Shown here piece by piece: positions 3,640 to 21,827 of a DNA stretch of 32,678 nt; within the stretch, counting starts at the first letter, position 1, and every line of letters begins with the position of its first letter. The stretch comes from a virus: positions 5,080 to 37,757 of IMG/VR virus record IMGVR_UViG_3300037847_005281; one strand, 5' to 3'. Position numbers and translations under genes: made by a program. Under the pieces are notes generated by a model, which saw nothing but the letters and a program-made list of their open reading frames with translations, ran no database searches and was not told the DNA's origin.

Positions 3640-3987
3640 ATGAAAAAAATAAGCATAATCGGACTGCTAGTAGCAGTCTTCTTTTCTGGTGCCGTAGTGG
3701 CAGAAGAAACAAACGATATCTCTTGGGCATTAACTCTTGAGAGACAAACAGAAGCCAATGCAAACACTGGCGAACTAATGGGAACTAAATCATTGGCAGG
3801 AATTGATATTTCAGCAGGTGGGTTATGGGACATTGACAAATCAGGTCAAGATTTTATTGCTCTGAACAAAACAATGTTGAACTTTAGTCATTCATTATCT
3901 GACCAAGCAACTTTGTATATAAAGAATGACTTTGATACAGAATTTGTCAGAACTGAGTCAACTGTAGGATTAAAAATTACATTTTAA
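3640..3987 (+). CDS. exported protein, outer-membrane/beta-strand type
   Basis: The ATG at 3640 follows a strong ribosome site (AAGGAGG, 7 bases upstream) and gives a 115-aa product. Residues 1-22 form a signal peptide (MKK, hydrophobic core, AVVAEE cleavage region). The mature part alternates polar and nonpolar residues and ends in phenylalanine (VGLKITF), as outer-membrane beta proteins do, but it is far too short for a full porin. An early promoter directly upstream suggests action soon after infection; alteration of the envelope or superinfection exclusion is a possibility only. No specific family recognised. Confidence 0.7.
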   Translation: MKKISIIGLLVAVFFSGAVVAEETNDISWALTLERQTEANANTGELMGTKSLAGIDISAGGLWDIDKSGQDFIALNKTMLNFSHSLSDQATLYIKNDFDTEFVRTESTVGLKITF

Positions 3988-3991
3988 TTTG

Positions 3992-4020
3992 TTGACAAAC
4001 ACGTTGCTATAGTGTATAAA
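3992..4020 (+). promoter_or_regulatory. sigma70 promoter of the tmRNA
   Basis: TTGACA at 3992-3997 and TATAAA at 4015-4020 are 17 bp apart. The -10 hexamer is also the first six bases of a late box (TATAAATA, 4015-4022), so one site could serve both host and phage-modified polymerase with almost the same start point near 4028. Confidence 0.8.
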
Positions 4021-4022
4021 TA
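4015..4022 (+). promoter_or_regulatory. T4-like late promoter box overlapping a sigma70 -10
   Basis: A perfect TATAAATA is superimposed on the sigma70 -10 element of the tmRNA gene. The overlap would allow tmRNA synthesis throughout infection. Confidence 0.55.
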
Positions 4023-4027
4023 TAGTA

Positions 4028-4310
4028 TGTTAACGTTGAAGCAACGTAGACATATACTGGACCTGGGGGCAGTACCCAGCGGCTCCACCAAAATACATTG
4101 AGTCATAGAGGTTGTAGAAGGCTTGACTATTGTTATTTAAACTCAGTGCGTTTCGGCGGGGCCGAACTAGGATCGACAGGTATGAAAGCGAAGTGGAGTT
4201 ATCCGTGGTGACCTACGTTATTCGGTCAAAAACTATAAATGCAAACGATAATTTTGCAAATGAAGATTTAGCCTTAGCGGCTTAATCATTCGGGGTTGGC
4301 AACTGACCTG
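4028..4310 (+). ncRNA. ssrA: two-piece (permuted) tmRNA
   Basis: tmRNA frees stalled ribosomes and adds a degradation tag. The gene has the alphaproteobacterial permuted order. The acceptor piece comes first and ends in CGGCTCCACCA at 4080-4090. The intervening segment is about 4091-4157. The coding piece starts with GGGGCCG at 4158. GGGGCCG pairs with CGGCTCC as a 7-bp acceptor stem with a G-U at the third pair, the alanine identity element. A T-arm (CTGGG/CCCAG) precedes the acceptor strand. The tag frame begins at GCA 4241 and stops at TAA 4283-4285, encoding ANDNFANEDLALAA (AANDNFANEDLALAA with the charged Ala). This resembles alphaproteobacterial tags and ends in the LAA signal read by ClpXP. 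Outer ends are approximate. It has its own promoter, and a ClpX gene lies about 9 kb away. Confidence 0.93.
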
Positions 4311-4337
4311 GCAACAGAACTAGTTGCACTTTTATTT
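4311..4337 (+). terminator. hairpin with T-rich tail after tmRNA
   Basis: GCAAC (4311-4315) and GTTGC (4323-4327) form a 5-bp stem with a 7-base loop, followed by ACTTTTATTT. It is a modest intrinsic terminator or processing hairpin ahead of the ferredoxin gene, whose message may come from read-through. Confidence 0.45.
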
Positions 4338-4347
4338 CGGGTGATTG

Positions 4348-4686
4348 ATGACATATGTAGTAACACAGGATTGTATCAAATGTAAATACACAGATTGTGT
4401 TGAGGTATGTCCCGTAGATTGTTTCTACGAAGGTGATAATATGCTTGTTATCAATCCAGATGAATGCATCGATTGTGGAGTATGTGAACCAGAATGTCCA
4501 GCAGATGCAATCATTCCTGATACTTCCCCAAAATTCACACAAAGACTTTACGATATCAATAAGAAATGGTCAGAAGAATGGCCTGTAATTACTGAACAAA
4601 AAGACCCACTACCAAATGCAGATGCAATGAATCCATCAAAAGGATATGCGGAAAGTAAAGAAAATTTACTAGACGAATATGATTAA
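4348..4686 (+). CDS. fdxA: 7Fe (3Fe-4S/4Fe-4S) ferredoxin, FdxA type
   Basis: A soluble electron carrier of 112 aa beginning [17 protein letters not shown]. It shows the FdxA pattern: Cys9, Cys17 and neighbours with CPVDC form one cluster site, and [12 protein letters not shown] forms the second. The C-terminal extension (about residues 60-112) is typical of bacterial FdxA. The ATG at 4348 is preferred to the TTG one codon earlier. Its stop overlaps the next gene by 8 bases, and an unknown protein, a 2OG-Fe(II) oxygenase and a methyltransferase follow in one tight operon. Phage ferredoxins are known from marine viruses. The partner is unknown; the radical SAM protein at 23223 and nearby oxygenases are candidates by inference. 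Confidence 0.93.
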
Positions 4687-6759: not shown

Positions 6760-6979
6760 ATAGCATATAAAGAGTTATAAACTTTATATTGTAGTGCATC
6801 GAAGAGGCTGTTACCAGACGGTCGAAGATGACTAGTTAGGGGTGGTACCCAGGCTCAAAGTCTAGCGACCGAGGGTCACATCGCTCTACCGAGCGGAACT
6901 AGGTTCCCTGGATTTAGAATGGTATCTGAGTCGAGGGGTTGGGGGTGAAACCAAGTCCCTCCTACTTTGCTATATTTTT
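6760..6979 (+). ncRNA. structured noncoding RNA of about 215 nt, family unassigned
   Basis: No credible reading frame covers this segment. ATAGCA (6760-6765) pairs with TGCTAT (6968-6973), closing the whole RNA. Inside are ATATAAA/TTTATAT with AGTT/AACT (6766-6789), CGGTCG (about 6819) with CGACCG (about 6866) extended by CTAG/CTAG, a GGGT/ACCC hairpin at 6840-6850, AGCGA/TCGCT, GCTC-TACC-GAGC, and a 3' arm GAGGG/CCCTC enclosing TTGG/CCAA. An ATTTTT tract follows. Start, closing helix and U-tract agree with the promoter, so the limits are fairly firm. It lacks RNase P core motifs and a tmRNA tag; 6S-like or marine environmental RNA families remain possible. There is no protein-coding gene on + downstream, so it is not a leader. 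Confidence 0.75.
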
Positions 6980-7083: not shown

Positions 7084-7171
7084 TGGCTTTAGGGGGAGGA
7101 TTCGAACCTCCACGTAACTATGTTACAACGGATAAACAGTCCGCTATGTCTACCAATTCCATCACCCTAAA
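7084..7171 (-). tRNA. class II tRNA with GUU (Asn) anticodon
   Basis: The minus strand folds into a full cloverleaf of 88 nt. The acceptor is TTTAGGG/CCCTAAA with discriminator G73 and an encoded CCA. The D-arm has GG in GAATTGGTAGA. The anticodon stem is GCGGA/TCCGT with loop CTGTTTA, hence GUU. A long variable arm GTAAC-ATA-GTTAC and T-arm GGAGG-TTCGAAT-CCTCC complete it. The body and long variable arm are those of tRNA-Leu-type (class II) molecules, while the anticodon and G73 are asparagine identity elements; bacterial tRNA-Leu normally has A73. U37 is also unusual, since position 37 is nearly always a purine. It begins 13 nt after the stop of the AsnRS-like gene, so both probably share a transcript. 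Confidence 0.9.
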
Positions 7172-7183
7172 CTAGCAAGTATA

Positions 7184-8008
7184 TTACGAATTTTTATCTA
7201 AAGCAGAAATCATTCTTGTCATACCGATTCCACCACCAACTCTTGGGAAGAAATCGAATTCTAAGAACTTTTCTAATTCTGCCTCTACTCTTTCTTTAGA
7301 GAATAGTTTATAAAGCAATTCTGAATATTCACCATTTGTGATTGTGTGAAAAGTATCACGCATCATTTCTTTATCACAAGAACGTTCCGCGGAACCTATT
7401 GTTTCCATACCTCCTAAGATAACATCTATCTTCTTACTTGTAGCACCACCTTCGTGTCTACTCATATTCCAGAACGGAGATGTCATTTCAGGAAAGTCTG
7501 TAATCATTGTAGCACCGAATTCTTCAAACATTTTAGTTTCGTGTTCGGCTTCCATTTCTGTCATTGCATCTAGACCAAAATGTTTTTGCCAGTCTGCATA
7601 TGTTCTTTCTTCTGGTTTAGGGAATTCTAAGTATTCACATAATTCATATTCCATCTTTTTCAAATCATCATATCCACCTGGAAATTCAAATTCAAACATA
7701 GGGAAGATTATATCGTGTCTACCTGGAATTGCATTTGGTTCTTGTCTATAGGACGTGGAGACACAAAAAAAGCCCTTTGCATCGGGCTTTGAGAGTAATT
7801 CGTGTTCTAACCACATTTGGCCTGTTTGGGGAAGGGGCCAGACTTGGCCTGCATAATTGTATGTTGCTACATTGAACGGATCTTCACAAGCCGCCAATAT
7901 ACTTAATCTGTTTTGAGTATGTACTTCTTCAAAACCTTTATCCAAAAAAAATGACCTTAAAAGGCCAACTGTTTTTGTAAATTTTGTAGGATTTATTAAT
8001 TGCGTCAT
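7184..8008 (-). CDS. AsnRS/AspRS-like class II synthetase catalytic core
   Basis: This 274-aa protein is a class II aminoacyl-tRNA synthetase fold of the Asp/Asn/Lys group without any anticodon-binding OB domain. Motif 2 is at about residues 84-109 (SYRQE, then GRHDIIFPMFEFEF; R88, E90, RH 97-98). The middle has IDVILGGMETIGSAERS, corresponding to the GGSQRE region of AsnRS. Motif 3 is GGGIGMTRM at 258-266, with the ATP-binding Arg265. Known stand-alone cores of this type include archaeal asparagine synthetase (AS-AR) and bacterial AsnA, which make Asn from Asp, ammonia and ATP, and other synthetase paralogues. The co-transcribed GUU tRNA makes a tRNA-linked role plausible. A minus-strand late box is 78 bases upstream of the start. 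Whether it charges tRNA, amidates Asp or modifies something else cannot be told from sequence. Confidence 0.82.
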   Translation of the reverse strand: MTQLINPTKFTKTVGLLRSFFLDKGFEEVHTQNRLSILAACEDPFNVATYNYAGQVWPLPQTGQMWLEHELLSKPDAKGFFCVSTSYRQEPNAIPGRHDIIFPMFEFEFPGGYDDLKKMEYELCEYLEFPKPEERTYADWQKHFGLDAMTEMEAEHETKMFEEFGATMITDFPEMTSPFWNMSRHEGGATSKKIDVILGGMETIGSAERSCDKEMMRDTFHTITNGEYSELLYKLFSKERVEAELEKFLEFDFFPRVGGGIGMTRMISALDKNS

Positions 8009-13168: not shown

Positions 13169-14440
13169 TTGTCAGACAAAAAAGATTATCATTGTTCGTT
13201 TTGTGGAAAACACAAGAATGAAATAAAAACTTTGATTGCAGGTCCGGCTAGTTACATTTGTAACGAGTGTATAGACCTTTGTCATTCAATCGTACACGAA
13301 AGAAAAAAATCTGACAAGATAGGTAAAAATTTAGACGGCGGCATTCCTACTCCCGATGAAATCAAAGAATTTTTAGATTTACACGTGATAGGACAAGCGG
13401 AAGCAAAAGAAGTCCTGAGTGTCGCCGTTTATAATCACTATAAAAGAGTAAATTTACCAGAAGACGATAACGATATAGAATTAGAAAAATCTAATGTTAT
13501 GATGCTTGGTCCATCAGGAACAGGTAAAACATTACTAGGTAAAACAATCGCAAAATTTTTAGAAGTACCATTTGCACAAGTTGATGCAACAACATTAACT
13601 GAAAGTGGTTATGTTGGTGAAGATGTTGAAAATGTAATTCAAAGATTATTAATGAATGCAGATTTTGATATTAAGAAAGCAGAACAAGGTATTATCTATA
13701 TTGACGAAATTGATAAAAAAGCAAAGAAAGGCGAAAACGTTTCAATAACAAAAGACGTATCAGGTGAAGGTGTTCAACAAGCATTACTAAAAATTGTTGA
13801 AGGTACTGTAGTACGTGTTCCACCAGGAGGTGGTCGTAAACACCCAGGTGCTGATATGCTTGAAGTTGATACAAGTAAAATTTTGTTTATTGTAGGTGGA
13901 GCCTTTGTTGGATTAGATAACATCATTAAGAAAAGATTAAACTCAAGTGGATCAATTGGATTTGGTGCAAATGTAGTAGCACCTGAAGAAGATAAAATAC
14001 AAGTTTCAAAAGAAGTATTAGCAGAAGATGTTATTAAGTATGGTATCATACCAGAGTTTATGGGAAGATTTCCTATCTTAGTAGGAATAGATGATTTAAC
14101 AAAAGACGAATTAACAAGAATTTTAACAGAACCTAAAAATAATCTTGTTGCACAATTTAAAAAGATTTTCAAATTAGATGGCGTAGAATTGAATTTCACA
14201 AAAGACGCAATCAAAGAAATAGCAAATCAGGCAAGTGAAAACAAAACAGGAGCAAGAGGACTACGTAGTGTATTAGAAAAATCATTATTAAAAATACAAT
14301 TTACATTACCTAAGTTACGAAAGAATGCAGGTCTTCAATCTGTAGAAATAACGGCTGATTTTATTAAAAGCAACAAAGAACCAATAATGGTATTTAAGGA
14401 ACCAAAATCAACAGGGACATCAAAAAATATAAATGAATAA
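13169..14440 (+). CDS. clpX: ClpX ATPase subunit of the Clp protease
   Basis: ClpX unfolds tagged proteins and feeds them to ClpP. The 423-aa protein is full length (E. coli 424). A zinc-binding domain (Cys 9, 12, 31, 34) is followed by Walker A GPSGTGKT (114-121), pore loop GYVG (147-150), Walker B IIYIDE (175-180), RKH loop (223-225) and the ClpP-contact loop IGFGA (263-267). All functional motifs are intact, so it could dock on host ClpP. The start is TTG at 13169, with AGAGAAAG upstream; no in-frame ATG is near. It overlaps infC, which overlaps rpsU. With a phage tmRNA (tag ending LALAA) and ClpS in the same window, a dedicated substrate-selection system is likely. Confidence 0.96.
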   Translation: MSDKKDYHCSFCGKHKNEIKTLIAGPASYICNECIDLCHSIVHERKKSDKIGKNLDGGIPTPDEIKEFLDLHVIGQAEAKEVLSVAVYNHYKRVNLPEDDNDIELEKSNVMMLGPSGTGKTLLGKTIAKFLEVPFAQVDATTLTESGYVGEDVENVIQRLLMNADFDIKKAEQGIIYIDEIDKKAKKGENVSITKDVSGEGVQQALLKIVEGTVVRVPPGGGRKHPGADMLEVDTSKILFIVGGAFVGLDNIIKKRLNSSGSIGFGANVVAPEEDKIQVSKEVLAEDVIKYGIIPEFMGRFPILVGIDDLTKDELTRILTEPKNNLVAQFKKIFKLDGVELNFTKDAIKEIANQASENKTGARGLRSVLEKSLLKIQFTLPKLRKNAGLQSVEITADFIKSNKEPIMVFKEPKSTGTSKNINE

Positions 14441-14975
14441 ACGACATAGAGAAGAACGTAATAAACCTTTTGTAATTTCAAATCACAGGATACGTTCTAA
14501 CGAATTGAGAGTGATTTCAGACGAAGGCGAACAACTTGGGATTTTATCTAAAAACGAAGCCCAAAATATTGCTGATGAAAAGCAATTAGATTTAATTTTA
14601 ATCGTACCAAATGCAGAACCGCCTGTAGCAAAAATAATTAGTTTAAATAAATATACTTACGAAATCAAAAAGCGAGAAAAGGATAGAGCAAAACAGGCAA
14701 GACAGAATTCAGTAGATATTAAGGAAGTTAAGTTTAGACCTAACATAGGTGAGAATGACCTTAAGATGAAACTGAAACAATGTCAAAAGTTTATTGACAA
14801 AGGCAATAAAGTAAAAATAACTATACAAATGAGAGGCAGAGAAAATTCTAGATCCACAGATGTACTAGAAAATTTCAATTCCCAATTCTCTGAGAATTTG
14901 AGTGGTTTCAAATTCGATGCACCTCTGAAACAAACAGGGAATAGAATAATGGGTATGTTGGTAAAAGATGAATAA
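14433..14975 (+). CDS. infC: translation initiation factor IF-3
   Basis: IF-3 binds the 30S subunit, keeps it free of 50S and checks start codon pairing. The 180-aa product has both domains. The N-domain includes NHRIRSNELRVISDEGEQLG and DLILIVPNAEPPVAKI. A Lys/Arg-rich linker follows, then the C-domain with DIKEVKFRPNIGENDL and KVKITIQMRGRE, the RNA-binding core. Length equals bacterial IF-3. It overlaps clpX upstream and rpsU downstream by 8 bases each (ATGAATAA junctions), so the three are translationally coupled. Unlike most host infC genes, it is not next to rpmI/rplT. Confidence 0.96.
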   Translation: MNKRHREERNKPFVISNHRIRSNELRVISDEGEQLGILSKNEAQNIADEKQLDLILIVPNAEPPVAKIISLNKYTYEIKKREKDRAKQARQNSVDIKEVKFRPNIGENDLKMKLKQCQKFIDKGNKVKITIQMRGRENSRSTDVLENFNSQFSENLSGFKFDAPLKQTGNRIMGMLVKDE

Positions 14976-15231
14976 CGAAAGAAACAATAAAAGACGTTGG
15001 AATAGCAATAATGATTTTGGTATTCGAAAGTCTGGAATACAAGTTGAAGTAAAGAACGGTCAATTTGAACGTGCAATGCGTAAGTTCAAAAAGAAAGTAA
15101 CTGAGGCTGGTATTATACAAGAAGTCAGGGAACGTAAATTTTTTGTTAAACCAAGTGAGATTAAACGAAAGGCACGTGATGCTGGACGTAAACGTTGGTT
15201 AAGAAAACAAAAAATGGATGAATGGAAATAA
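14968..15231 (+). CDS. rpsU: ribosomal protein bS21
   Basis: bS21 sits on the 30S platform near the anti-Shine-Dalgarno and affects mRNA selection. The 87-aa protein has an extra N-terminal extension of about 25 Asn/Arg-rich residues before the conserved core VEVKNGQFERAMRKFKKKV, then GIIQEVRERKFFVKPSEIKR and the basic tail. Phage bS21 is known from pelagiphages and can enter host ribosomes. Together with IF-3 in the same operon it could bias initiation towards phage messages (inference). Confidence 0.95.
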   Translation: MNNERNNKRRWNSNNDFGIRKSGIQVEVKNGQFERAMRKFKKKVTEAGIIQEVRERKFFVKPSEIKRKARDAGRKRWLRKQKMDEWK

Positions 15232-15889: not shown

Positions 15890-15895
15890 TATGTA

Positions 15896-15967
15896 CGTTC
15901 AGGCAATATAGCCCGGAAGTAGCATAATGTGAAGGAACGCACTTAAACCTTTAACCGGGAGAGTGCA
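15896..15967 (+). promoter_or_regulatory. glutamine-II (downstream-peptide) riboswitch
   Basis: The element has the conserved core of glutamine riboswitches: CGTTCA at 15896, GGAAGTAG at 15915-15922, and GAAGGAACGC at 15931-15940. CGTTC pairs with GAACG (P1), GGC with GCC (15902-15913), and CCCGG (15912-15916) with CCGGG (15955-15959) as a pseudoknot crossing P1. CCGGGAGAG includes the ribosome site of the 32-aa ORF at 15968, so glutamine binding would hide it. GCACT (15939-15943) with AGTGC (15962-15966) gives a possible alternative fold. The pattern and the small ORF behind it match the class found in marine cyanobacteria, cyanophages and ocean metagenomes. Confidence 0.85.
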
Positions 15968-16738: not shown

Positions 16739-17053
16739 ATGCAAACACAAAATGAAAGTGTAACATCAGTTGATACGGCATCGACTATAAAAATAGCAAC
16801 ACCAAAAAGATATTATGTTGTTATGCATAACGATGACCAAACACCTATTGACTTTGTTGTTAAAGTACTTATGGAACTGTATCATCACGACCAACAAACA
16901 TCAGCCGACTTAGCAAATAAAATTCATATAGACCAAAAAGCAATAGTCGGAATGTATAATTTAGAAATAGCGGAACAAAAGGTGGAAGAGACTCACGGGA
17001 CAAGCAGGGCACATGGTTACCCATTAACGGTAACATTGGAACAGGCAGATTAA
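16739..17053 (+). CDS. clpS: ClpS adaptor protein
   Basis: ClpS binds N-degron substrates and delivers them to ClpAP (or ClpCP). The 104-aa protein has a flexible N-terminal extension (about 20 residues) and the core RYYVVMHNDDQTPIDFVVKV, containing the NDD-x-T-P-[IM] substrate pocket, then KAIVGMYNLEIAEQKVEE and PLTVTLEQ. No ClpA is in the window, so it would act through a host ClpA. Binding host ClpA could also redirect that protease. A ribosome-site-like GGGAAG and late box precede it. Its coupling with phage ClpX and tmRNA suggests control over both degradation routes. Confidence 0.92.
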   Translation: MQTQNESVTSVDTASTIKIATPKRYYVVMHNDDQTPIDFVVKVLMELYHHDQQTSADLANKIHIDQKAIVGMYNLEIAEQKVEETHGTSRAHGYPLTVTLEQAD

Positions 17054-17876: not shown

Positions 17877-18629
17877 ATGACAAATCGATCCCAACAAGGG
17901 TATCGAAAATACCAGAACTGGAATGGTTCACGTTGGTTATATACACGTGAACAATCACAATGGCATTTTGATACTAAATCAGATACACAAGACTTTCAGC
18001 CTATTTGCCAATTTATTGGTGATTGGGATTTTTCTGTACAGAAAGCAATGAAACGTGTTGTTGATTGTACTTGGGCAAATCGTAATTATTTCTCAAAAAA
18101 TCCAGATGAAAATAAGAAACCGATGTATTCTGCAAGTGCGGAAGAAATGGACTTGTTTAGAGCGGGTGCAAATCCAAAACAAGAAATATTTCAACGTGCG
18201 GTAGCAGACGATATTCCCATATTTCAAAAAATTGCTAGTCACTTAAAACTAGAAGATCCATCAGTTAAATTTCATAATCAAAGACCTGGACAAACTCTTA
18301 ATTTACATATTGATAATTTTGCTGGTCGTAAAGAACGTGGCAATAGTTTCAAAGAAATAAAAGTAGACAGAAATCCTGACGCAATGAGAAGATTTGTTGT
18401 GATGCTAGATGATTGGAAACACGGACAAGTGTTTATGTTAGGAAATCAAGTTTGGCATCGTTGGAACAAAGGCGATTGTATAACTTGGAACTGGCGTGAT
18501 ATTCCACACTGTACAAGTAATATGGGTTGGGATAATAGACCTATGTTACAGATAACAGGTTGGACTACAAAAGAAACTATTGAAGTTGTAAACAACGGCA
18601 GTTTTGAAAAGAAAGTAGAGATATGTTAG
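17877..18629 (+). CDS. 2OG-Fe(II) oxygenase-like protein A
   Basis: The 250-aa protein carries the 2-oxoglutarate oxygenase signature: metal ligands H144-x-D146 (LHIDNF), distal His211 (DIPHCTSN) and R221 ten residues later (DNRPMLQ) for binding 2-oxoglutarate. It is clearly paralogous to protein B at 20065-20781; both share DNFAGRKERGNSF, MLDDWKHGQVF and NMGW-x-x-RPMLQ. Its stop overlaps the tctA start by 7 bases, so oxygenase and transporter are translationally coupled. The pair flanking a permease is striking. Substrate unknown; 2-oxoglutarate use is inferred from the motif. Confidence 0.8.
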   Translation: MTNRSQQGYRKYQNWNGSRWLYTREQSQWHFDTKSDTQDFQPICQFIGDWDFSVQKAMKRVVDCTWANRNYFSKNPDENKKPMYSASAEEMDLFRAGANPKQEIFQRAVADDIPIFQKIASHLKLEDPSVKFHNQRPGQTLNLHIDNFAGRKERGNSFKEIKVDRNPDAMRRFVVMLDDWKHGQVFMLGNQVWHRWNKGDCITWNWRDIPHCTSNMGWDNRPMLQITGWTTKETIEVVNNGSFEKKVEIC

Positions 18630-20065
18630 AACAAATTTTAGTACTATTAGCAGGTACATTTTATGGTCTCGTTGTAGGTATTATTCCAAGTGCAGGTGCA
18701 ACAACAGGATTAGTTGCTTTGTTTTCTTTTATTGGATATTTTTCAGGAGACCCATATTTAGGAGTAATATTCTGTATGGCAGTTGTTGCCGCCAGTACAA
18801 CTGGTGATACATTTACTGGTGTACTATTAGGAATACCAGGAGCAAATTCAGCCGCGGCTACTATGGTAGACGGATACCCATTAGCAAAACAAGGTAAGGC
18901 AACTTATGCCATTACGGCGGCAGTTACAACATCAACAGTAAATGGATTAATTTGGGGTACATTGACTTTTGGATTATTGCCCTGGTACATACAATTAATG
19001 ATGATATTTGGTATACCTGAATTGTGGGCATTCACAATGTTGGCACTTGCTTGTGTTGGATTTATATCAAGCAAATGGTGGGTAAGAAGTTTAATCGCTA
19101 TTGTAATAGGTTTCTGTTTAGGATATATTGGTACAGATCCATATACAAACGCAGATAGATGGACATTAGGTTGGGCATACTTAGGTGATGGATTACAACT
19201 TATGCCAGTAGTTGCAGGTTTATTTGCTTTTCCAGAAATTATTGCAGGCTTAAGAAGAAGTGATAAAATTTCTGCGGTACCAATGGACAACTTATTTCAA
19301 CAAACAGTTGATGGTGCAAAAGCAACTTGGAAACATAAATGGGACGCATTACGAGGTGGGGCTATAGGAGCATTTATTGGTTTACTTCCTGGCTTAGGTG
19401 GAGCAATGAGTGATTGGTTAGCATATGGTTCTACAGTAGCCGCCCATCCAAATGATAAGTTTGGTAATGGTAACATCAAAGGTGTTATTGGACCAGAAGG
19501 ATCTAATAATGCACAAAAGGCTACATCTATGATACCAACTGTTTTATTCGGTATACCAGGTGCAAGTTTTGCCGCGGTGTTGATGGGCTTGTTTATGTAT
19601 CTTGATTTTGAATTAGGTACACCAGACTTAGCATATGATACAAAATTCTTTGATAGTTTGTTTTATGGATTTATGTGGGCAACTGTACTTTGTGGAATTT
19701 TATGCTTGATTTTTACTAGATATATTGCTATGATAAGTTATGTACCTTACAAATATTATTTTCCGATTCTTGTAGCATTTATTATTTGGGCTTGTGTTCA
19801 ATATACAGGTGGTTGGGAAGATTACGCAGTATTGGCAGGTATGACAGTATTGGGACTTATTTGTAGAAAATGGAAATTTAGTAGACCAGCAATGTTAATG
19901 GGCTTCATTCTTTCAGATAGAATTGAAGGCTTATCAATACAAATGTTAAACTTATATGGTTTTGACAAATTAATGGATAGACCGATATTTTTAGGTTTAA
20001 TGGGATTAATAGTAATCGTTTTTATATGGGGAATATTTAGACGAGGAAAATTGGAGTATGCATAA
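18623..20065 (+). CDS. tctA: TctA-like permease of a tripartite tricarboxylate transporter
   Basis: TctA is the large membrane subunit of TTT transporters, which import citrate and other carboxylates with a periplasmic binding protein. The 480-aa protein is full length with about 11-12 hydrophobic segments. It has both family repeats: GLVVGIIPSAGATTGLVALF near the N-terminus and FIGLLPGLGGAMSDWLAYG near residue 250, plus GVIGPEGSNNAQKATSMIPT and LFGIPGASFAAVLMG. It is coupled to oxygenase A upstream and B downstream (TAATG). A TctC-like binding protein follows B. No standard TctB of about 150 aa is seen; the 76-aa membrane protein at 21835 is the nearest candidate. Confidence 0.92.
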   Translation: MLEQILVLLAGTFYGLVVGIIPSAGATTGLVALFSFIGYFSGDPYLGVIFCMAVVAASTTGDTFTGVLLGIPGANSAAATMVDGYPLAKQGKATYAITAAVTTSTVNGLIWGTLTFGLLPWYIQLMMIFGIPELWAFTMLALACVGFISSKWWVRSLIAIVIGFCLGYIGTDPYTNADRWTLGWAYLGDGLQLMPVVAGLFAFPEIIAGLRRSDKISAVPMDNLFQQTVDGAKATWKHKWDALRGGAIGAFIGLLPGLGGAMSDWLAYGSTVAAHPNDKFGNGNIKGVIGPEGSNNAQKATSMIPTVLFGIPGASFAAVLMGLFMYLDFELGTPDLAYDTKFFDSLFYGFMWATVLCGILCLIFTRYIAMISYVPYKYYFPILVAFIIWACVQYTGGWEDYAVLAGMTVLGLICRKWKFSRPAMLMGFILSDRIEGLSIQMLNLYGFDKLMDRPIFLGLMGLIVIVFIWGIFRRGKLEYA

Positions 20066-20781
20066 TGAATGATGAAAAATGGGGTGATAGTAGATGGGAA
20101 TTTACTAAATCACAATCTCAATGGCACTTTGATGAATTTGAACCAGGCGAAAGAGACTTTCAGTATGTTGGTACTTTTCAAGGAGACTGGTCAAATGAAA
20201 TAGATGAGTGTTTAGGTAGAGTAAAACCAAATACTTGGGCAAATAGAAACATAGAACAAAAGTCAGAAATCTATACTGCCTCACAAGAACAAAACGATTT
20301 AATAAAAGCAGGAGCAGATCCTGACTCACAGATTTTTAGTAGGGCAAATGCGAAAGATATTCCTATCTTTCAACGTATTGCTAACTATTTTGGTATGAAT
20401 GAAACGGCAATAAAGTTTCATAACCAAACAACAGGTCAAATGTTGCATTGGCACATTGATAATTTTGCAGGACGCAAAGAACGTGGTAATTCATTTACCG
20501 AGATTGAGGCTGATAAAAATCCTCACTTAATGCGAAGATTTGCAATTATGTTAGACGATTGGAAACACGGTCAAGTTTTTGCATTAGGTAATACATACTT
20601 TCATCAATGGAAAAAAGGTGAATGTATAACTTGGGAATGGAGAGATATTCCACACGCAACTTGTAATATGGGTTGGAACGATAGACCTATGCTACAAGTA
20701 ACAGGATGGACTACCGAAACAACACATAAAGTTGTTAAGGAAGGACGTAAAAACAAACTCATAAACGTAAACGGAGAGTAA
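20065..20781 (+). CDS. 2OG-Fe(II) oxygenase-like protein B
   Basis: A 238-aa paralogue of protein A (17877), with all proposed ligands kept: HID in HWHIDNF, a distal His in DIPHATCN and Arg in NDRPMLQ. Long identical stretches such as DNFAGRKERGNSF and MLDDWKHGQVF indicate duplication within this lineage followed by divergence. It starts at the TAATG junction with tctA and is followed 2 bases later by the tctC-like gene, so it sits inside the transporter operon. Its product may act on the imported carboxylate or depend on imported 2-oxoglutarate (hypothesis). Confidence 0.8.
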   Translation: MNDEKWGDSRWEFTKSQSQWHFDEFEPGERDFQYVGTFQGDWSNEIDECLGRVKPNTWANRNIEQKSEIYTASQEQNDLIKAGADPDSQIFSRANAKDIPIFQRIANYFGMNETAIKFHNQTTGQMLHWHIDNFAGRKERGNSFTEIEADKNPHLMRRFAIMLDDWKHGQVFALGNTYFHQWKKGECITWEWRDIPHATCNMGWNDRPMLQVTGWTTETTHKVVKEGRKNKLINVNGE

Positions 20782-20783
20782 CT

Positions 20784-21827
20784 ATGAGAAAAACATTAAT
20801 AGCATTAGCCGTATTTTTTGGCTTAACAACATCAGCATTCGCTGAATACATTATGGTTATCCCTCAGAAGCCCGGTGGCGGAACTTCTGTATGGGGTGAA
20901 ATCGTAGCAGGACAATTAGAAAAACACTTAGGTGAAAAGATTGTTCTAAAACATTATCCAGGTGCAAGAGATATTCCTGGTTTTAACAAATGGCATAACA
21001 CTATGCGTGATGATGACAAAGTAATTATGGTATCACACGGTGGTAACGGTGTTGCATTCTTACAAGAGAATGTAGACTACAATTATGCTGAATATGAATC
21101 AATCGGATTGATGAACTTGAATATTATCGCTGGTAAATTAAAAGGCGCTGATATGACAAACCCATCATTTGCGGCAGGTTCAGGTATGGTTCCAGAGGCA
21201 TTTGCAATGACAATGCTTATCTGTGGTCCAGATAAATCAATCGCAGAATATACTGCTTGTTTCAAAGAACACGTAACTTGGGTTCCAGGAATGAGTGGCG
21301 GTGAACGTAGACTTGCTTTCAAAAGAGGCGAACTTACAGGTACACGTGAAAATCCAGCGGCTTATAAAAAGCACGTAGGACCAAATGAAAATGCAGAACT
21401 TTGGTTTCATCACGGTATTTTACAACCAGATGGTTCACACGCAGATGATCCTAACTATCCAGGATTTCAATTCGAAATTTTATTCGAAGCGAAATGGGGT
21501 GTAGCACCAAGTGGTGAAATGTATGATGCATACAAACTTGTGAAATCATTCCGTGATGGTTTACAAAAAGCATTATGGGTTAACGCAGGTAATCCAAATG
21601 CACCAGAACTAATTGCGGCAATGGAAAAAATGGCGGCAGATCCAGAATCAACAAAAGTAATTGCTAAAAAAGTTGGTAATTATGAATGGAAAATCGGTTC
21701 TGACGGAAATGCTCAACGTGATACTCTTATGACATTTATTACAGAAGATGCACTAAGAGGTCTTGTTGAGTTTAATACTAACGCATTAGGACTTAAGTCT
21801 GTATTCAAAGAAAATCTTGTAAAGTAA
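20784..21827 (+). CDS. tctC: TctC-like periplasmic binding protein
   Basis: The 347-aa product has a signal peptide (MRKTLIALAVFFGLTTSAFA) and, directly after it, YIMVIPQKPGGGTSVWGEIVAGQLEKHLG, corresponding to the PGG-x-[TS]-D ligand-binding start of TctC/Bug solute receptors, then a PGA motif (HYPGARDIPGF) like the family's N-R-PGAGG. The remainder is less conserved than in bacterial TctC. The family delivers carboxylates to TctA in the inner membrane. It is the last of the four cassette genes. A GGAG ribosome site precedes it. Confidence 0.8.
   Translation: MRKTLIALAVFFGLTTSAFAEYIMVIPQKPGGGTSVWGEIVAGQLEKHLGEKIVLKHYPGARDIPGFNKWHNTMRDDDKVIMVSHGGNGVAFLQENVDYNYAEYESIGLMNLNIIAGKLKGADMTNPSFAAGSGMVPEAFAMTMLICGPDKSIAEYTACFKEHVTWVPGMSGGERRLAFKRGELTGTRENPAAYKKHVGPNENAELWFHHGILQPDGSHADDPNYPGFQFEILFEAKWGVAPSGEMYDAYKLVKSFRDGLQKALWVNAGNPNAPELIAAMEKMAADPESTKVIAKKVGNYEWKIGSDGNAQRDTLMTFITEDALRGLVEFNTNALGLKSVFKENLVK

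Follow-up and report, generated by a model that had tools for sequence, protein, structure and literature searches.

A marine jumbo-phage group with clpX and clpS also carries a two-piece tmRNA gene of alphaproteobacterial type

tmRNA releases stalled ribosomes and marks incomplete proteins for degradation, and the locus described here raises the question of why a phage should carry a gene for it. The window, by which we mean the whole 32,678-nucleotide stretch of DNA that was analysed, belongs to a 37,757-bp IMG/VR virus record. The reading that we consider probable is that a jumbo myophage of marine bacteria carries here a functional, permuted ssrA gene, which would recycle ribosomes and send the released fragments to ClpXP.

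Architecture and conservation of the tmRNA gene

A sequence-only reading had proposed a two-piece, phage-borne tmRNA of alphaproteobacterial type and had named a covariance search as one check. All three attributes are supported, by the Rfam models, by the IMG/VR record and by synteny with a 342-kb viral contig (G002) discussed below. At 3992-4337 the plus strand carries a tmRNA gene that is complete, circularly permuted (two-piece) and of the alphaproteobacterial type. In a cmscan search of the window, the alpha_tmRNA model RF01849 matches 3973-4330 (+) with 141.5 bits (E 6e-39) and the tmRNA_permuted model RF04321 matches 4029-4285 with 124.5 bits, both exceeding the Rfam gathering cut-offs of 50 and 47 bits, respectively. 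The cmscan listing holds only the best model of each clan, and the beta and cyano tmRNA models are absent from it. The match is far beyond chance. Model positions 1-355 of RF01849 are all matched, with the window tmRNA being shorter between tag and 3' end, where the alignment has a gap. ARAGORN calls a permuted tmRNA (tmRNA*) at 3997-4376 with the encoded tag ANDNFANEDLALAA. The earlier coordinates of 4028-4310 had the right locus and a slightly short extent, as the promoter begins at 3992 and the 3' hairpin reaches 4327. The elements of the gene, taken directly from the sequence unless a source is given, are as follows.

3992-3997 and 4015-4022, +: promoter, TTGACA, 17-nt spacer and TATAAATA; kept in relatives
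4029-4090, +: tmRNA acceptor piece (start of the RF04321 match at 4029, and sequence; mature 5' end putative)
4063-4079, +: T-stem CTGGG/CCCAG
4080-4086, +: acceptor stem 3' strand CGGCTCC
4087, +: discriminator A
4088-4090, +: CCA end
4091-4157, +: intervening 67-nt segment between CCA and the 5' acceptor strand; an insert in both Rfam alignments
4158-4164, +: 5' strand of the acceptor stem, GGGGCCG, with which the coding RNA piece begins; pairs 7/7 with 4080-4086
4241-4282, +: tag reading frame of 14 codons, ANDNFANEDLALAA, with stop TAA at 4283-4285 (ARAGORN and sequence)
4299-4337, +: 3' hairpin GCAACT/AGTTGC around CCTGGCAACAGAA, then a T-rich run (covariation, invariant loop, terminator-like site)

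The models, ARAGORN and direct reading agree on the permuted order, in which the 3' half of the acceptor with its CCA precedes the 5' half and the tag. The third pair of the 7-bp acceptor stem is G-U (G3-U70), the mark of alanine tRNAs. Order, CCA end and stem are thus as they were first described. By analogy with the tmRNA family, the 67-nt segment is expected to be removed by tRNA-type processing to leave two RNA pieces. The tag frame has a resume codon, a stop and a hydrophobic C-terminal degron. Counting the charged alanine, which supplies the leading Ala of AANDNF..., the added tag is AANDNFANEDLALAA, exactly as originally written. The alphaproteobacterial type is indicated by the full-length RF01849 match together with the 3' CCTGGCAACAGAA hairpin, whose strands lie at 4299-4304 and 4322-4327 with CCTGGCAACAGAA itself at 4307-4319. 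The hairpin and T-run, which overlap a terminator-like site at 4311-4337, are a candidate for the 3' end of the coding piece or for its terminator. Single-strand folding with a model lacking pseudoknots was uninformative, the coding piece folding no better than shuffles (z -0.99).

Of all TATAAATA sites in the window and the 342-kb contig, just those of the tmRNA copies have an exact TTGACA at a spacing of 16-18 nt. A reading of TATAAATA as a late promoter was dropped because the motif is rarer than expected (28 against 60 in the 342-kb contig, most of whose structural region is without it) and because a perfect -35 accompanies it at the tmRNA.

Three diverged phages related to the window have the acceptor stem GGGGCTG/CAGCTCC or GGGCCTG/CAGGTCC, with the seven pairs and G3-U70 retained. 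Across a set of 74 permuted tmRNAs drawn from the window group, IMG/VR contigs and three MAGs, all seven pairs are found in 72 and G3-U70 in 70, with nine distinct stem pairs. Among four phages compared, the loop of the 3' hairpin is unchanged, and the stem, GCAACT/AGTTGC in the window, becomes TGACTT/AAGTCA. Judged from these sequences, the gene is under constraint, and it is intact, conserved and covarying, with predicted promoter, alanine identity, tag and 3' end. The conservation also bears on whether the RNA might instead be a decoy that occupies host SmpB or AlaRS and so blocks host trans-translation. A precedent exists in the tag-less tmRNA-like RNA of phage DS6A, which inhibits endogenous tmRNA in E. 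coli (PMC11915505). However, all the related phages have an intact tag frame, resume region and C-terminus of ClpXP type, and we regard a decoy as very unlikely.

Phage identity, origin and host

Homologues of 37 of the 42 window proteins lie on the 342,607-bp viral contig G002, with gene order mostly conserved within 278-312 kb, and this contig encodes a T4-type gp23 major capsid protein. Because of this largely collinear match, the window contig is almost certainly a fragment of a jumbo myophage; the gp23-type capsid and a genome above 200 kb are seen in the relative, the window contig being itself a fragment. The annotated window genes, which include UvdE, M15 peptidase (endolysin-like), SufE and Hsp20, hold no capsid or terminase gene, as might be expected if the contig were host chromosome and the tmRNA the host's own. 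Against that explanation stand the IMG/VR virus record and the synteny, by which the contig is viral unless its relatives are chromosomal too, and we give it hardly any credence. Just upstream of the window, L002 4160-5224 contains a stretch of undetermined bases, translated as XXXX, that is probably a scaffold gap.

In a tree of 80 tmRNAs, which is weakly supported, the window sequence falls nearest to other jumbo-phage tmRNAs (G009, 84%) and mostly apart from sampled hosts, and BLAST against 289 sampled alphaproteobacterial genomes finds matches only in short conserved stretches, mainly the T-arm and tag start. This tree position and the shortness of the host matches suit a tmRNA long resident in phages rather than recently captured. 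They also weigh on the idea that the phage picked up a host ssrA at an integration site or by transduction and has kept it as a passive relic. Phages do commonly integrate at tmRNA genes (PMC9004378, PMC11915505). A relic is nevertheless highly improbable here, given that no integrase was found in eight records, that the stems covary, that the position before a ferredoxin gene and the gene's own promoter are kept in diverged phages, and that the closest sequences are other phage tmRNAs.

Assignment of a host by tmRNA similarity was dropped, the BLAST matches being mainly T-arm and tag start and the tree poorly supported. The closest annotated phage relatives of ClpX and ClpP infect Rhizobiales, and the closest endolysin relative (68.7%) belongs to a Roseobacter phage. 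An alphaproteobacterial host is likely on these grounds, if not proven. These clues lean the same way as the first reading, whose statement that the tmRNA points strongly to such a host was nevertheless too strong: tmRNA type alone cannot settle the host, because phage Melnitz has an alpha-type tmRNA yet infects OM43 (PMC9004378).

Clp genes, related phages and proposed function

Several window genes concern proteolysis or translation, and are listed with the gene that follows the tmRNA.

820-1344, +: peptide deformylase, of the translation gene set (Pfam; NCBIfam TIGR00079 over cut-off)
4345-4686, +: FdxA-type ferredoxin, ATG at 4348, directly downstream of the tmRNA (NCBIfam FdxA_Protbact, 154.5 bits)
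13169-14440, +: ClpX unfoldase (NCBIfam NF003745, 575.3 bits, cut-off 359; aligned to solved ClpX)
14433-14975, +: translation initiation factor IF-3, adjoining clpX (Pfam IF3_N, IF3_C)
14968-15231, +: ribosomal protein bS21 (Pfam Ribosomal_S21)
16739-17053, +: ClpS-type adaptor (Pfam ClpS, 87 bits; matches solved ClpS)

The ferredoxin gene is also next after the tmRNA in the related contigs L004, L005 and L007. The window ClpX retains the zinc finger, GPSGTGKT, the GYVG pore loop, the RKHP loop and the IGF loop for ClpP docking. Six further viral contigs were collected through ClpX similarity, and a permuted tmRNA is present in all six, so that with the window tmRNA, ClpX and ClpS occur together in 7/7; the presence of ClpX is by construction, as the contigs were found through it. 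Their tags are ANANYQPEMAMAA, ANDNYQPEMAMAA or ANANYEPEMALAA, all ending A-(L/M)-A-A. Some of the six are near-duplicates and they hold three distinct tmRNA sequences, which puts the independent count, the window included, at about four. L113 has the same tag but is the same viral population (99.8%) and was dropped as independent evidence. Full ClpP is found in two contigs, with GQACSMG, MIHQP and an aligned Asp at the Ser-His-Asp positions. The 342-kb contig has ClpP with intact catalytic positions, and ClpA as well. Both ClpP and ClpA come from relatives; the 37.8-kb fragment to which the window belongs shows neither. SmpB (PF01668) was not found in the seven contigs, which may be incomplete, and host SmpB is presumed; the function of the tmRNA would then depend on host SmpB accepting the phage RNA. 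Five related contigs encode a second ClpP-like protein, which is divergent and proline-rich at its N-terminus (for example at L038 11669-12310, L020 1366-2016 and L021 1492-2133), between primase-like and PRPP-synthetase-like genes.

A two-piece phage tmRNA is not categorically new, given those of Melnitz and Phosso and the tmRNAs of huge phages. By 2021, 53 two-piece tmRNAs had been counted in phages, 50 of them marine or aquatic, and tmRNA was present in 2.3% of the genomes of phage isolates (PMC9004378). The earlier statement that phage tmRNAs are rare accordingly fits isolates; it does not fit metagenomic phages, since a single T-arm pattern recovers at least 119 IMG/VR contigs, at least 69 of them with ARAGORN tmRNAs. 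Methylophilales phage Melnitz (MZ577097; PMC9004378) is, like the window phage, a marine myophage with a permuted tmRNA of alphaproteobacterial type (tag ANDNYVPVDYALAA, as read here), but it is a 141-kb phage of OM43. Its ssrA is reported to lie under a glutamine riboswitch, beside the late-transcription coactivator (PMC9004378), whereas the window tmRNA precedes ferredoxin, with 11.6 kb separating it from the glutamine riboswitch before Hsp20.

Sinorhizobium phage Phosso (PV764938) is likewise a jumbo phage with a permuted tmRNA (tag ANDNVSTKVALAA), clpX adjoining IF-3, and ClpA and ClpP, the last 71% identical to ClpP of the 342-kb contig. It differs in being a soil phage of S. meliloti, with ClpX 53% identical to that of the window. 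Its tmRNA gene match, of ~600 bp and missed by ARAGORN, lies ~31 kb from clpX. Sinorhizobium jumbo phage AP-J-162, also a soil phage unlike the marine window phage, is reported to have a tmRNA, six Clp proteins, clpX adjoining IF-3, and Hsp20 (PMC11242549). The huge phages of Al-Shayeb et al. 2020 share tmRNA, IF-3, bS21 and peptide deformylase, and SmpB is reported there whereas none was found here (PMC7162821). ClpP, ClpS or ClpX have been reported in jumbo phages (PMC7824862), and the clpX-IF-3 adjacency is shared with both Phosso and Atu_ph07. What is new here, at the level of sequence, is the conserved association of tmRNA with ClpX and ClpS in a marine jumbo-phage group. Matches to the ferredoxin and ClpX of Acinetobacter phage MD-2021a were set aside because its records resemble a bacterial chromosome; CAKLQF020000001 and CAKLQH020000005 carry mutS, metX, leuA and tig-clpP-clpX.

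Our proposed mechanism follows the tmRNA family. The transcript would be cut into acceptor and coding pieces, the RNA charged by host AlaRS through G3-U70 and brought to stalled ribosomes by host SmpB, whereupon the host ribosome would switch to the tag frame and append AANDNFANEDLALAA. For the phage, this may maintain ribosome recycling during host mRNA decay and deliver tagged fragments to host ClpXP or to a ClpXP that contains phage ClpX (and ClpP in full genomes). A working tmRNA is supported by the models, ARAGORN, the compensatory changes and the kept G3-U70, CCA and tag frame, and further by the Clp motifs, ClpS in 7/7, IF-3, bS21, peptide deformylase and the lack of an integrase in the eight records.

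A stronger form of this proposal is that the tmRNA serves mainly to route the products of truncated host mRNAs to a ClpXP/ClpAPS protease assembled by the phage, rather than for rescue as such, with amino acid supply or removal of host factors as the purpose. As it is a stronger form of the first, the confidences in the two overlap. The joint presence of tmRNA, ClpX and ClpS in 7/7 contigs, the ClpP and ClpA of the 342-kb relative, the similar set in Phosso, and the recycling role proposed for the Melnitz tmRNA (PMC9004378) all speak for it. However, ClpX was the means of finding the contigs, tmRNA and clpX are 9 kb apart in the window and not one operon, Atu_ph07 has ClpX and ClpP but a permuted tmRNA was not found in it, and ClpX occurs in just 1 of 50 other viral contigs with a permuted tmRNA, though most of these are short. 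We hold such a takeover to be a tentative possibility. Somewhat more doubtful still is that the giant-phage group has its own pathway, in which tmRNA writes the tag, ClpX/ClpP and ClpS/ClpA read it and host SmpB is borrowed; if true, phage components would largely control protein turnover in the infected cell. The idea that phage tmRNAs are linked to ClpX in general was dropped on the 1/50 count, the exception being a 48-kb contig in which ClpX is again followed by an IF-3-like gene.

These results show the alphaproteobacterial-type two-piece tmRNA to be a stable part of a marine jumbo-phage lineage that also carries Clp protease parts, and the recurrence of tag and destroyer together in one giant-phage group is worth testing. 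Phosso shares most of the package and grows on culturable Sinorhizobium, so that ideas on why phages carry tmRNA can be tested directly.

Other elements of the window

The window glutamine riboswitch (15894-15943, +, 44.6 bits) lies 240 nt before the Hsp20 gene and is not seen at the gathering threshold in L004, L005 and L007. A manA RNA (RF01745) follows the FkbM methyltransferase gene at 6766-6971 (+) and is conserved in relatives (L004 4289-4486; L005 3683-3881; L007 5222-5420). In L007 a membrane permease gene, judged PitA-like by eye, follows it at a distance of ~270 nt, and in the window, L004 and L005 an AsnRS-like gene on the opposite strand stands between the two. At 7084-8008 (-), tRNA-Asn(GTT), which was not found in L004-L009, neighbours a class II synthetase-like protein of 274 aa, which apparently lacks an anticodon-binding domain and is 67% identical to the 'tRNA ligase' of cyanophages P-SSM2 and P-SSM7. 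A tricarboxylate-transporter-like pair was recognised by eye at 18623-21827 (+), TctA-like at 18623-20065 and TctC-like at 20784-21827, for which NCBIfam gives no match at 1e-5; homologues of both occur on the 342-kb contig in reversed order.
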